Assembly: GCA_017625835.1 (NCBI GenBank)
Contig: JAGAKF010000086.1
Span: forward strand, 1 to 48,744
Reading direction: 5' to 3'
From: Clostridia bacterium
Lineage (GTDB): Bacteria > Bacillota > Clostridia > Oscillospirales > Acutalibacteraceae
DNA: 48,744 nt
Position 1 is the stretch's first letter. Every line of letters starts with the position of its first letter. The notes beneath the pieces are model-generated. The model did no database searches and was not told the DNA's origin. It saw nothing but the letters and a program-made list of their open reading frames with translations. This document shows, piece by piece, positions 23,358 to 27,726 of this stretch. The translations under genes and the position numbers were made by a program.

Positions 23358-23386
23358 AAGATTGACAAAAAATAAACAATTAAATA

Positions 23387-23415
23387 TTGACCTTTTGAAA
23401 TACATATAGTATAAT
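23387..23415 (+). promoter_or_regulatory. Strong promoter of the structured RNA
   Basis: TTGACC (23387-23392) and a perfect TATAAT (23410-23415) are separated by exactly 17 bases in an A/T-rich context, among the best promoter matches in the window. Transcription should start near 23422. It precedes the structured RNA, and no other promoter was recognised before the hydrogenase-maturation operon. Confidence 0.8.
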
Positions 23416-23421
23416 AACTAT

Positions 23422-23688
23422 ACAAAGTTTGTACCTGACATAAAGTTAGGGTAGAGATGGCTAAATGCTGCATGGTTTTGGAAGAAAATTTCCGTTTCGA
23501 CATCGTCAAAACAAAAAATTTTATCTTACAAAACTGCTATGCACCTAAATTCCTGTAACTAGCTGTGTTACGATGCCACAGTCGCATTTCAACCTAGAAA
23601 ATTGGTTTGATATGATTGTCTTTAGGCATGCAGAATTCAGCCATCTCCACCCTGTTCTGACTGAAAGGTGACGGCTGAATTTTTTCAA
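23422..23688 (+). ncRNA. Large structured non-coding RNA / leader (possibly raiA-type)
   Basis: No reading frame is present, but the helices are numerous. A 5' hairpin lies at 23434-23451 (CCTGAC/GTTAGG). A closing stem P1 pairs 23449-23462 with 23639-23652 (13 of 14 pairs), and is continued by CTGCATG (23468-23474) with CATGCAG (23627-23633). Inside are GTTTTG/CAAAAC (23475/23507), CCTAAA/TTTAGG (23544/23621), AACC/GGTT (23591/23604), and two interleaved helices, GTAAC/GTTAC (23555/23567) and CTGTG/CACAG (23563/23577), which would form a pseudoknot or alternate. Size, multi-branch shape and host group suit the raiA RNA class, but I cannot confirm its consensus. It is not rod-like as 6S RNA is, and lacks tmRNA, RNase P and SRP signatures. 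Confidence 0.75.
23634..23686 (+). terminator. Terminator T1, overlapping the closing stem of the RNA
   Basis: AATTCAGCC (23634-23642) pairs with GGCTGAATT (23673-23681), with an inner CACC/GGTG, followed by TTTTTC. Its left arm shares bases 23639-23652 with the 3' strand of P1, so P1 and T1 exclude one another. Confidence 0.75.
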
Positions 23689-23698
23689 AAGATTACTC

Positions 23699-23736
23699 TT
23701 GCCGCACCCTTTTTGTCGGGGTGCGGTAATTTTTTT
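23699..23736 (+). terminator. Terminator T2, abutting the RBS of the hyd operon
   Basis: An 11-bp stem, TTGCCGCACCC / GGGTGCGGTAA (one G-U), is followed by seven T. The U-tract runs straight into GGAGG and the ATG at 23747. A terminator in this position must be passed, or a cryptic promoter used, for the operon to be expressed, so it may be an attenuator. Confidence 0.82.
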
Positions 23737-23746
23737 GGAGGCTGTT

Positions 23747-24004
23747 ATGGAAACAAGAGTTGCAGTTATGAGCATTATCGTGGAAAAAGGGGAGACGGTT
23801 GAAAAGCTTAACTCTGTTCTTCACGACTACGGCGACTATATCATCGGAAGAATGGGTATCCCTTACCGCCGTAAGAATATAAATATCATAAGCATCGCGA
23901 TTGATGCGCCTCAGGATACGATAGCGGCCCTTTCGGGTAAGATCGGCAGACTTGAAGGCGTCAGCGTTAAAACAGCCTATTCGGGTGTGATTACGAATGA
24001 ATAA
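23747..24004 (+). CDS. TM1266-family iron-only hydrogenase system regulator
   Basis: An 85-residue ACT/NikR-C-like protein (beta-alpha-beta-beta-alpha-beta), the putative regulator regularly found with [FeFe]-hydrogenase maturation genes. Visible features are the initial strand TRVAVMSIIVEKGE, the central YGDYIIGRMGIPYRRKNINIISIAID, and the terminal GKIGRLEGVSVKTAYSG. It has no DNA-binding domain, so it probably senses a ligand or acts through a partner; its biochemical role is not established. The start is fixed by GGAGG immediately after terminator T2. Its end overlaps the hydE start by eight bases, so translation of the two is coupled. Confidence 0.88.
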   Translation: METRVAVMSIIVEKGETVEKLNSVLHDYGDYIIGRMGIPYRRKNINIISIAIDAPQDTIAALSGKIGRLEGVSVKTAYSGVITNE

Positions 24005-25043
24005 ACTTTTGAGTTTAATTGAAAAGCTTGAAACAGAACATTCTCTGTCGCTTGACGAGTATGTTTGCCTGATTGAGAACCGAACCGAAGAATCGGCACA
24101 GCTTCTCAGAGAAAAAGCGGACAAAGTCCGTCGCGAGATTTACGGCAATACCGTTTTTATCCGCGGACTTATAGAAATAAGCAATTTTTGCAAAAACGAC
24201 TGTCTTTACTGCGGAATAAGACGTTCGAATAAAAACTGCGACCGCTACCGCCTTACAAAAGAAGAGATTCTTGAATGTTGCGACGAAGGTTACGGGCTTG
24301 GATTCCGTACCTTTGTTATGCAGGGCGGTGAAGATGCTTTTTACAGCGACGAGCTCCTTTGCGGAATCGTAAGCAGAATCAAGGAAAAATACCCCGACTG
24401 CGCGGTCACCCTTTCACTCGGTGAAAGGAGCGAGGAAAGCTACCGTAAACTTTATGAGGCAGGTGCCGACCGTTATCTTTTACGTCACGAAACGGCAGAC
24501 AGCGGACACTATGCGAAGCTTCATCCTGAAAAAATGTCGTTTGAAACGAGGATGAACTGCCTGAAAACTCTTAAAAAAATCGGTTTCCAGACAGGTTGCG
24601 GGTTTATGGTCGGTTCGCCGTACCAGACAACGGAAATGATTGCGAAGGATTTGAAATTTATTGAAGAATTCAAACCCGATATGTGTGGAATCGGACCGTT
24701 TGTGCCCCATAAAGATACTCCGTTTGCGAACGAAAAAGGTGGCTCGGCAGAGCTTACCTGCTATCTTTTGTCAATAATACGCTTGATTCATCCTGCGGTA
24801 CTTCTGCCGTCGACAACAGCACTCGGTACGATTGACGGAAACGGACGTGAAAAGGGGATTCTTGCGGGCGCAAATGTTGTAATGCCGAATCTTTCACCGA
24901 CTTCGGTCAGGAAGAAATACGAGCTTTATAACAACAAGCTCTCCGACGGAAACGAATCTGCGCAGAGCAAAGCAAACCTTGCAAAGCGAATTGAATCGAT
25001 CGGATACAGAATTGTGACCGACCGTGGTGATATAAAGAAATAA
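23997..25043 (+). CDS. hydE: [FeFe]-hydrogenase maturase HydE (radical SAM)
   Basis: A 348-residue radical SAM enzyme of H-cluster assembly; HydE acts on the HydG-derived iron-cyanide-carbonyl synthon on the way to the diiron subcluster carrying the azadithiolate bridge. The [4Fe-4S] site is C65-x3-C69-x2-C72 in SNFCKNDCLYCGIRRSN. Next come FRTFVMQGGEDAFY (the glycine-rich GGE SAM-binding motif) and LRHETADSGHYAKLHP, which is diagnostic of HydE. The related biotin synthase and PylB lack the same downstream motifs. It lies between the TM1266 regulator (8-base overlap) and hydG (16-base gap). No structural hydrogenase gene is in the window. Confidence 0.95.
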   Translation: MNKLLSLIEKLETEHSLSLDEYVCLIENRTEESAQLLREKADKVRREIYGNTVFIRGLIEISNFCKNDCLYCGIRRSNKNCDRYRLTKEEILECCDEGYGLGFRTFVMQGGEDAFYSDELLCGIVSRIKEKYPDCAVTLSLGERSEESYRKLYEAGADRYLLRHETADSGHYAKLHPEKMSFETRMNCLKTLKKIGFQTGCGFMVGSPYQTTEMIAKDLKFIEEFKPDMCGIGPFVPHKDTPFANEKGGSAELTCYLLSIIRLIHPAVLLPSTTALGTIDGNGREKGILAGANVVMPNLSPTSVRKKYELYNNKLSDGNESAQSKANLAKRIESIGYRIVTDRGDIKK

Positions 25044-25059
25044 GAAAGAAGGAATAATA

Positions 25060-26508
25060 ATGGCTGAATATAATCCTAAATCATTAAAAGCTGAAGAATT
25101 TATAAACGACGGTGAAATTCTTGCGACACTCGAATACGCGGAAGCAAACAAAAACAACCGCGAGCTTATTGACGAAATCCTTGAAAAAGCACGTCCGAAA
25201 AAGACGGAGACAGGTTGCGTCTGCAGTGGTCTTTCTCACCGTGAAGCTTCTGTGCTTCTTGCGTGCGAGGATCCCGAGGTGCTTGAAAAAATCTATGCAA
25301 TCGCGGAAGAAATCAAGCTTGCATTCTACGGCAACCGTATCGTAATTTTTGCGCCGCTTTATCTTTCAAACTATTGCATAAACGGCTGTGTTTACTGCCC
25401 ATATCACAGACAGAACAAGTGCATCAAAAGAAAGAAGCTCACTCAGGAAGAGGTCAAGGCGGAGGTTATTGCCCTCCAGGATATGGGACACAAGCGCCTT
25501 GCAATTGAAGCAGGCGAAGACCCGAAAAACAACCCGATTGAATATATCCTTGAATGTATCAACACAATTTACAGCGTTAACCACAAAAACGGTGCAATCC
25601 GCCGTGTTAACGTAAACATTGCCGCAACAACGGTTGAAAACTACCGCAAGCTTAAGGATGCAGGAATCGGTACTTACATCCTCTTCCAGGAAACTTACCA
25701 CAAGGAAAGCTACGAAAAGCTTCATCCGTCGGGACCGAAGAGCGATTACAGATACCATACGGAAGCTATGGACAGAGCAATGGAAGGCGGTATCGACGAC
25801 GTTGGCCTCGGTGTACTTTTCGGACTCGAGCTTTACAAGTATGAATTTGCAGGACTTCTTATGCACGCTGAGCACCTTGAGGCTGTTCACGGTGTAGGTC
25901 CTCATACGATCAGCGTTCCGCGAATCAAGCACGCAGATGATATTGATCCCAATGCTTTCGACAACTCAATTTCTGACGAAACATTTGCAAAGATTACGGC
26001 TTGTATTCGCCTTGCAGTTCCGTATACGGGAATTATTATTTCAACAAGAGAAAGCGAAGCTGTACGTTCAAAGCTTCTTCGCCTCGGCGTTTCTCAGGTT
26101 AGCGGCGGTTCGAGAACATCTGTCGGTGGTTACACTCAGGAGGAAAGACCGCACGACACAGAGCAGTTTGACGTTTCCGACCAGCGTACACTCGATGAAG
26201 TTGTTCACTGGCTTATGGAAAACGGTCATATTCCGTCATTCTGTACGGCTTGTTACCGCGAAGGCAGAACGGGCGACCGCTTTATGAGCCTTTGCAAGAG
26301 CGGTCAGATTCTCAACTGCTGCCACCCGAATGCGCTTATGACTCTTACGGAATACCTTACGGACTATGCTTCCGAGAAAACAAAGGAAAAGGGCTTTGAG
26401 GTTATCGAAAGAGAGCTTACAAGAATCCCGAAGGAAAAAGTAAGACAGATTGCGGAAGATAATATCAGAGATATCAAAAATTCAAACAGAAGAGATTTCA
26501 GATTCTGA
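25060..26508 (+). CDS. hydG: [FeFe]-hydrogenase maturase HydG (tyrosine lyase, radical SAM)
   Basis: A 482-residue radical SAM enzyme that cleaves tyrosine to p-cresol and dehydroglycine and makes CO and cyanide ligands for the H-cluster. The SAM cluster site is C106-x3-C110-x2-C113 in NYCINGCVYCPYH. The C-terminal second cluster motif C395-x2-C398-x22-C421 (CTACYREG ... NCCHPN) is intact, which separates HydG from the related thiamine enzyme ThiH. FQETYHKESYEKLHPSGPKSDY is another HydG hallmark. Full length matches the family, and the start ATG follows AAGAAAGGA. It is placed between hydE and hydF, 12 bases ahead of the latter. Confidence 0.96.
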   Translation: MAEYNPKSLKAEEFINDGEILATLEYAEANKNNRELIDEILEKARPKKTETGCVCSGLSHREASVLLACEDPEVLEKIYAIAEEIKLAFYGNRIVIFAPLYLSNYCINGCVYCPYHRQNKCIKRKKLTQEEVKAEVIALQDMGHKRLAIEAGEDPKNNPIEYILECINTIYSVNHKNGAIRRVNVNIAATTVENYRKLKDAGIGTYILFQETYHKESYEKLHPSGPKSDYRYHTEAMDRAMEGGIDDVGLGVLFGLELYKYEFAGLLMHAEHLEAVHGVGPHTISVPRIKHADDIDPNAFDNSISDETFAKITACIRLAVPYTGIIISTRESEAVRSKLLRLGVSQVSGGSRTSVGGYTQEERPHDTEQFDVSDQRTLDEVVHWLMENGHIPSFCTACYREGRTGDRFMSLCKSGQILNCCHPNALMTLTEYLTDYASEKTKEKGFEVIERELTRIPKEKVRQIAEDNIRDIKNSNRRDFRF

Positions 26509-26520
26509 GAGGTGCTCGTT

Positions 26521-27726
26521 ATGGGACTTAACGATACTGTTTCCGCTGAAAGAGTTCATATCGGATTTTTCGGCAAACGTAATGCGGGCAAATCAAGCGT
26601 TGTCAATGCCGTAACGGGTCAGGAGCTGGCTGTTGTTTCGGCTGTAAAGGGAACGACGACGGATCCCGTGAAGAAAGCGATGGAGCTTTTGCCGATCGGC
26701 CCTGTTGTGATAATCGACACACCGGGCATTGACGATGAAGGCGACCTCGGTGAACTCCGCGTCAAAAAGACAAAGCAGATCCTTGCAAAGACGGATGTTG
26801 CAATTCTTGTTGTCGACGGTGAAAAAGGTCTTGAAGACGCTGACAATGAGCTGATTAAACTTTTTGAGGAACGTAAGATTCCTTATCTCATCGTTTACAA
26901 CAAATCGGATTTATTGAAAGACACTCCGTGCGACGACGAAAAATCAATTTACGTCAGCGCGGTTAAAAAATCAAATATCGAAGAGTTGAAAGATAGAATC
27001 GGCAGTCTTGCAAAAACCAAAGAAAACAAGAAGCAGATTGTAGCTGACCTTATTGAAGACGGCGACGTTGTTGTGCTTGTTACGCCGATTGACGAATCAG
27101 CGCCGAAAGGCAGGCTTATCCTGCCGCAACAGCAGACGATACGCGATATTCTTGATGCGCACTGCACAGTTGTCTGCTGTCAGGACACGGAGCTTACTTC
27201 AACTCTCAGAGCGCTTGCAGTAAAGCCAAAGCTTGTTATAACAGATTCGCAGGCTTTCGGCAGAGTTTCCAAGGATACTCCCGACGACATAATGCTGACG
27301 TCTTTCTCGATTCTTTTTGCACGTTACAAAGGCGACCTTGCGGCACTTGTCGACGGAGCTGCAAAGCTTGCGAAAATAAAAGACGGGGACAAGGTGCTTA
27401 TCTCCGAGGGCTGCACGCACCACAGGCAGTGTAACGATATCGGTACGGTGAAAATGCCGGGCTGGATTAAAAATTATTCACAGTCCGAGCCGGATTTCCG
27501 TTTCACATCAGGCGGCGACTTCCCCGAGGATATTTCAGAGTTTTCTTTGGTTGTCCATTGCGGCGGCTGTATGCTTAATGAAAAGGAAATGCAACGCAGA
27601 ATCGCAGTAGCCCAGGAGGCAGGCGTACCGATTGTCAATTACGGAATTGCCATTGCGCAGATGCACTCAATCCTTCGCCGAAGCCTCGAACCGTTCCCTG
27701 AAATTTTAAAAATTCTTGATAAATAA
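26521..27726 (+). CDS. hydF: [FeFe]-hydrogenase maturation GTPase HydF
   Basis: A 401-residue scaffold protein that receives the diiron precursor from HydE/HydG and delivers it to apo-hydrogenase. The N-terminal GTPase domain has GKRNAGKSS (P-loop, residues 18-26), a G2 threonine in GTTTDP, DTPGIDD (G3) and NKSD (G4). The C-terminal iron-sulfur site is C298-x-H300 (GCTHHRQ) with H346-C347-x2-C350 (HCGGC), the CxHx45HCxxC form seen in the family, so all ligands are present. An upstream in-frame GTG at 26512 falls in the ribosome binding site; the ATG at 26521 was chosen. It is the last gene of the operon and is followed by a strong terminator. Confidence 0.96.
   Translation: MGLNDTVSAERVHIGFFGKRNAGKSSVVNAVTGQELAVVSAVKGTTTDPVKKAMELLPIGPVVIIDTPGIDDEGDLGELRVKKTKQILAKTDVAILVVDGEKGLEDADNELIKLFEERKIPYLIVYNKSDLLKDTPCDDEKSIYVSAVKKSNIEELKDRIGSLAKTKENKKQIVADLIEDGDVVVLVTPIDESAPKGRLILPQQQTIRDILDAHCTVVCCQDTELTSTLRALAVKPKLVITDSQAFGRVSKDTPDDIMLTSFSILFARYKGDLAALVDGAAKLAKIKDGDKVLISEGCTHHRQCNDIGTVKMPGWIKNYSQSEPDFRFTSGGDFPEDISEFSLVVHCGGCMLNEKEMQRRIAVAQEAGVPIVNYGIAIAQMHSILRRSLEPFPEILKILDK

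Follow-up and report, generated by a model that had tools for sequence, protein, structure and literature searches.

Tungsten-cofactor (Wco) riboswitches have been reported to precede certain ferredoxin hydrogenase genes (in the accessible part of PMC9481103), and the accessible parts of the literature searched (including PMC11109978, PMC8632094, PMC9481103 and PMC2864571) contained no account of [FeFe]-hydrogenase maturation being controlled by an RNA. The protein family annotated as 'iron-only hydrogenase system putative regulator' (TIGR03959; PDB 2NZC), to which the gene lying directly 3' of the RNA described here belongs, is given neither target nor mechanism in the records consulted, and its link to RNA is a proposal of the present analysis. 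Here we examine the leader of a TM1266-hydE-hydG-hydF operon within a stretch of 48,744 nucleotides (the window; contig JAGAKF010000086.1 of a Clostridia bacterium), for which the original prediction was control by a large structured RNA and tandem terminators.

The operon starts at 23747 on the plus strand and its content was predicted correctly, as all four products score over their own NCBIfam cut-offs: the TM1266 family protein (23747..24004, 85 aa; TIGR03959 at 117 bits, PF21699; a relative of PDB 2NZC), HydE (23997..25043; TIGR03956, 580 bits), HydG (25060..26508; TIGR03955, 909 bits) and HydF (26512..27726; TIGR03918, 569 bits). The TM1266 protein is covered almost end to end by a single Pfam domain and is without a recognised DNA-binding domain. 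The near-consensus promoter was recovered as a sigma-70-type TTGACC-17-TATAAT (23387..23415, plus strand) that matches 11/12 in the promoter scan and has a -10-like box at the same place in congeners. In keeping with the remark that no other promoter was seen for the genes, the stretch from the terminator to 23747 contains no promoter-like plus-strand site by the scan, the sole other such site of the leader (23607-23636, 9/12) being located inside the insertion described below. Upstream of the promoter, an inverted repeat (TTGACAAAAAATAAACAA, 23362..23379, plus strand; also found in congeners) resembles a Rex-type operator, and it is possible that redox control is added to the attenuator.

The predicted pair of terminators was reduced to one. 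The downstream hairpin, T2 (GCCGCACC/GGTGCGGT with a U-run, 23699..23736, hairpin 23699-23729, plus strand), was detected by the terminator scan, is found in 8/8 aligned leaders (window counted) and has, as described, a U-run abutting the Shine-Dalgarno sequence of TM1266 (GGAGG, 23737..23741, plus strand). The upstream one, T1 (23634..23681, plus strand), pairs 23634-23642 with 23673-23681 across a loop of 30 nt and is not listed by the scan, which allows loops no longer than 8. As it joins the end of the insertion to host sequence, it is impossible in the uninserted relatives; we dropped it as a candidate, and it probably does not function as a terminator. The expectation of a structured RNA was borne out energetically, since the RNA between promoter and terminator folds better than all of its shuffles (sets of 200 and 100), with z-scores of -6.2 for 23423-23746 and -4.5 for 23423-23694.

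Taken at face value, this low folding energy (z -4.5) favours the reading first proposed, in which the whole of 23423-23690 forms one purpose-built riboswitch in this organism. A search of 60 relatives with the DNA of 23380-23760 retrieved orthologous leaders that match at both ends and miss the middle, and 23449-23652 is missing from the corresponding leaders of six congeners (G013, G004, G006, G010, G014 and G003), which align with the window minus the insert as one continuous leader. The 204 bp in question (23449..23652, plus strand) end in the inverted repeats GGGTAGAGATGGC...GCCATCTCCACCC and are flanked by TA on the left (23447-23448) and TG on the right (23653-23654); in a search of the genus (the window's genome counted), 5/18 genomes matched the window piece and 7/18 matched one full copy. 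Thus, on account of the empty sites and the related elements scattered elsewhere, the long closing stem and most of the internal helices (23449-23652) belong to an inserted MITE-like element, the large structure was abandoned as an elaborate RNA in its own right, and the whole-structure riboswitch is refuted by the empty sites to the point of being practically untenable.

The full copies of the element are mostly 278-288 bp long, with inverted-repeat ends and TA-rich flanks, and in these features they resemble MITEs with TA-type targets; the flanks are TA/TG in the window copy and TA-like in the other copies, and an empty site is demonstrated for the window copy alone. Unlike in such MITEs, the arms differ between copies (L031, L038, L044, L051, L056 and others) while retaining their complementarity (AATTTCCAACA/TGTTGGAAATT, AATTGTCAACA/TGTTGACAATT), as if they were mutually corrected or selected as a stem, and the window copy is the shorter one (204 bp). 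Two further leaders were found to be visited by the same family: in G002 (L053/L068) another copy lies between the promoter and the motif, and in L066 a truncated piece of approximately 100 nt follows the terminator.

In the congeners the conserved part consists of GTACCTGACAYAAAG, a short loop and CTGANTGAAAGG, and the terminator comes next. This 'hyd motif' (approximately 35 nt) reads CUGA-[P2, 3-4 bp]-AAAG-[P3 hairpin]-CUGA-[P2']-AAAG, and is composed of the helices P1 (CU/AG), P2 (3-4 bp) and P3 (a hairpin), which enclose two near-identical internal loops (CUGA/AAAG). In the window, comparison with these leaders places its 5' half (the 5' strands of P1, P2 and P3; GTACCTGACATAAAG) at 23431..23445 and its 3' half (CTGACTGAAAGGTGACGGC) at 23657..23675, both on the plus strand, the insertion having split the copy in the P3 loop. 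It counts against the motif reading that this copy is interrupted, with a score of 14.1 bits (E 0.09) by the model R1 introduced below. The model R3 gives four matches in the window's own genome (best E 0.18). Given that the lowest-energy structure predicted for the window RNA still contains P1, P2 and P3, the last being lengthened by the insert, and that the insert's own inverted repeat could hold the two halves together, the switch may still work in this genome. By analogy, 23657-23675 is also the predicted antiterminator strand (the test of terminator pairing reported below was made on other leaders, the window lying outside it).

Among the first 14 leaders the motif was too conserved for any covariation to show. 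In the broader alignment A4 we counted 20 doubly changed cells against 5.8 after shuffling, with the third pair of P3 occurring as AU (19), GC (8), CG (2) and GU (1; 3 cells unpaired) and that of P2 as UG (15), CG (8), GC (4) and AU (1; 7 cells unpaired). In A6, pairing reached 93.5% against 72.0 in shuffles, doubly changed cells numbered 44 against 13.3, and the four P2 positions varied as pairs, while 60 cores yielded 175 P2 pairs against 136.8 (sd 4.9); the A6 rows and the 60 cores were partly selected by eye, the shuffles ignore phylogeny and the model searches favour paired matches. Alignment A5, in which 3- and 4-bp P2 helices were misaligned, was set aside. The linked R3 cores from outside the training rows formed all four P2 pairs in 19/20 cases, with 11 different helices, in a set that excludes L228, L232-L235 and the unlinked matches and was retrieved by a search that itself favours pairing; L228 does not form the same P2. 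By these comparisons P2 and P3 covary, as in a conserved, structured aptamer.

The linkage of the motif to H-cluster assembly genes was examined by pattern and model searches. A pattern scan of 84,980 species returned 13 loci, all (13/13) upstream of a TM1266 gene, with hydE present in the piece examined in 11, one cut by the end of the piece and one accompanied by transporter genes. R1, a covariance model made from 14 leaders, matched 32 of the 394 genomes of the order; among the 30 loci examined, 19 lay directly upstream of TM1266-hydE or hydE, one (L081) stands at the head of a gene row with hydE 2.3 kb downstream, one (L074) precedes a TM1266-like gene and one (L096) lies at a contig end. 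A match from outside these 30 (G047) is by coordinates 375 nt upstream of hydE. With R2 (35 leaders; 7 family genomes and 1 class genome are already in the model) 11/13 loci of the class and 24/25 of the family were linked, L137 being ambiguous, and with R3 (19 rows with a 4-bp P2, 17 of them from the 29 hydE loci considered below) 16/30 examined loci of the phylum were linked, including 14 of the best 16. Weak matches were often unlinked (order: 8/30, L082, L086, L094 and L099-L103; class: 2/13, L114 and L115; phylum: 14/30, L188, L191, L195 and L198-L208), and some of these, where ORFs were listed, fell inside or opposite an ORF. Up to the phylum level, the motif was encountered before TM1266-hydE/hydG, before hydE or hydG alone and before aspA-hydF, the last in two genomes of the genus of G607. 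AspA, a known neighbour of hydF, is able to supply ammonium for the H-cluster bridge (in the accessible part of PMC11736057).

The reverse question was addressed with loci chosen independently of the motif. HydE is present in 169/394 genomes of the order and an R1 match lies upstream in only about 20; as that search was strict and scored few candidates per genome, it gives neither absence nor true frequency. In the 29 hydE loci (the best-scoring of the 169 hydE genomes), R2 produced same-strand upstream matches in 11 (L164 being from a training genome and L169 at E 0.99 only), and reading of the remaining ones revealed the same architecture, P2 being 4 bp long (CUGA-NNNN-AAAG-loop-CUGA-NNNN-AAAG). 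With R2 and R3 together, 26/27 loci with TM1266 have a motif match at E<=1 (24 at E<=0.13; L152 and L169 at E near 1 only), a figure that is a description and not an independent test because R3 was trained on 17 of these loci; neither model found a motif in L158 or in the two loci without TM1266, so that L158, L163 and L170 stand without one. Two loci carry more than a single copy: in L148 a tandem pair precedes TM1266-hydE (2849-2937), and in L160 a second R3 match (1448-1487, 26 bits, operon strand), perhaps a hydG-proximal copy, is situated just past the downstream end of hydE. As to whether the RNA might be a free-standing gene apart from hyd operons, it is the insert that occurs alone elsewhere, and the motif split by it that is linked to them. 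RNA-based control of the maturation operon by an undescribed, hyd-linked class is thereby supported comparatively; the anatomy originally given to it did not hold, the conserved RNA being the motif of approximately 35 nt that the insert interrupts.

The expression platforms point to how such control might operate. A terminator-like hairpin was detected within 150 nt in 54/60 leaders, and the 3' strand of the motif is more complementary to the 5' arm of the terminator in the same leader (19.06) than to those of swapped partners (15.50, sd 0.40; 0/2000 swaps reach it); the 16 nt preceding the motif, taken as a control, scored 9.81. The complementary stretch comprises AAAGG and the following bases, as exemplified by AAAGGCACGG with CCGTGCCTTT in L085 and L088. 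At seven loci (L179, L181, L182, L184, L189, L194 and L222) the motif precedes hydG and ends 12-15 nt ahead of its start codon, with a Shine-Dalgarno sequence AAAGGA in six of them and AAAGAGAGG in L194, and G607 possesses copies of both the terminator type and the hydG start-site type.

An alternative view would take the box for a DNA operator, i.e. two CTGA-N-AAAG direct repeats bound by a transcription factor, as its position just downstream of the promoter and the near-identity of the repeats would permit. This we regard as very unlikely, for the N positions, where they vary, change together so as to keep base pairs across a loop, the 3' strand fits its own terminator and copies occur within operons at the hydG ribosome-binding site. 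We consider instead that the TM1266-hydEGF leader very probably holds one conserved cis-regulatory RNA, the hyd motif, which by its sequence would serve as an attenuator (a riboswitch-like OFF switch) of H-cluster assembly. We infer that the aptamer fold and the antitermination pairing compete. With the RNA folded (effector bound), the 3' strand would be hidden, the terminator would form and transcription would stop before TM1266, while in the unfolded RNA the 3' strand would pair with the terminator arm and the operon would be read. In other bacteria, where the same RNA ends at the hydG Shine-Dalgarno sequence, it would act on translation. Two leading candidates present themselves as effector: a small molecule (or ion) belonging to the pathway, and the TM1266 protein, which might itself carry a ligand.

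In the former case, both CUGA/AAAG loops would be bound, without a protein, by a ligand from the H-cluster pathway, whether an ion or a small molecule (iron, a CO/CN-bearing iron synthon or an amino-acid precursor). The compactness and strong conservation of the loops, the fact that the RNA is found with a terminator as well as at the hydG start site, and the presence of the motif before FecCD-type and NMT1/SsuA-like transport genes, as with many riboswitches, speak for such direct binding. Furthermore, eight TM1266 genes situated away from the motif are without a motif of their own, so the RNA is more than a leader of TM1266. Given that the motif and a TM1266-like gene adjoin even where no hyd maturase follows, we hold direct binding to be a serious candidate that falls somewhat short of an even chance.

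In the latter case, TM1266 would itself be the RNA-binding effector, in cis and in trans, and the near-symmetric RNA would suit an oligomer. The protein was found in 11/12 motif genomes tested, in eight on a different contig from the motif copy (G269, with the motif at a contig end, being a ninth), and the hydE loci follow the same trend (26/27 with TM1266 have the motif at E<=1, two of them near E 1, against 0/2 without it), with the reservation that 17 of the 26 motif-bearing loci trained R3. Motif and TM1266-like gene also stand together beside transport genes in L074, L193, L227 and L064, and in L171 and L064 an ABC ATPase carries the TM1266 domain as a fusion, an arrangement reminiscent of the ligand-sensing domain of MetN. 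On the other side, G1300 (94% complete) has the motif and no TM1266 was found in it; of 12 TM1266 loci examined, 8 free-standing ones and the fused L220 showed no R2 or R3 match in the piece examined (L217 and L218 have weak matches beside the gene); and the change between a 3- and a 4-bp P2 would alter the geometry offered to a protein. Protein binding is likewise plausible at a little under one half, and since the motif-less free-standing TM1266 genes weigh against tight pairing, we rank a small-molecule riboswitch and TM1266 with a ligand about equal.

The transport contexts bear on both. In L193 and L064 the motif and the TM1266-like gene lie beside a FecCD permease and an ATPase (identified partly by sequence only), in L227 beside a gene for an NMT1/SsuA-like substrate-binding lipoprotein, and in L074/L172 the TM1266-like gene that follows the motif adjoins one for a hydrophobic protein without Pfam or NCBIfam match (G423 is absent from the order's hydE genomes). 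In L228 and, weakly, in L234, the motif precedes an NMT1/SsuA-like binding-protein gene with no adjoining TM1266; the NMT1/SsuA-like context (L227, L228, L234) could point to the effector. A motif-led row in L171 (2620-13430, G349) comprises a FecCD permease, the ABC ATPase with the fused TM1266 domain, HydE, a NifH-like protein, two nitrogenase-component-1-like proteins, a binding protein, HydF and a flavodiiron-like protein, so that a nitrogenase-like set accompanies H-cluster maturases and HydG is missing from the row. More tentatively than either binding mode, we suggest that TM1266 might be a ligand-sensing RNA-binding protein that forms with the hyd motif a sensor-RNA system, coupling H-cluster assembly (transcription of the hydE/hydF operons, translation of hydG) and the uptake of pathway nutrients to the state of maturation.

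With its occurrence ahead of hydE, hydG and aspA-hydF up to the phylum level, such an RNA would show that H-cluster assembly is metered by the cell. What cells sense could then be assayed directly by means of the hyd motif, which would also suggest what the orphan regulator TM1266 does and open a way to influence the hydrogen metabolism of gut bacteria and acetogens.

The remark that no described riboswitch class was known for this operon was upheld by Rfam 15, which at the gathering score matched only tRNAs (two of them in the window) across the window, the element copies and the leaders of 18 + 18 loci (scanned sets of 10, 18 and 18); matches obtained under permissive thresholds were chance-like and were rejected. 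The hyd motif shares with the Wco riboswitches the condition of a hydrogenase-linked RNA leader; the latter are placed before hydrogenase genes and not before maturases (in the accessible part of PMC9481103), and no such Rfam family was matched here. It also differs from the known riboswitches and attenuators at large in matching no Rfam 15 family. In its design, the hyd motif is nevertheless akin to transcription-terminating riboswitches and protein-dependent attenuators (e.g., PyrR sites, ribosomal leaders): like them it is a short structured RNA after the promoter, its 3' strand would be common to the conserved fold and to an alternative pairing with the terminator, and it exists as well in a form adjacent to the Shine-Dalgarno sequence.
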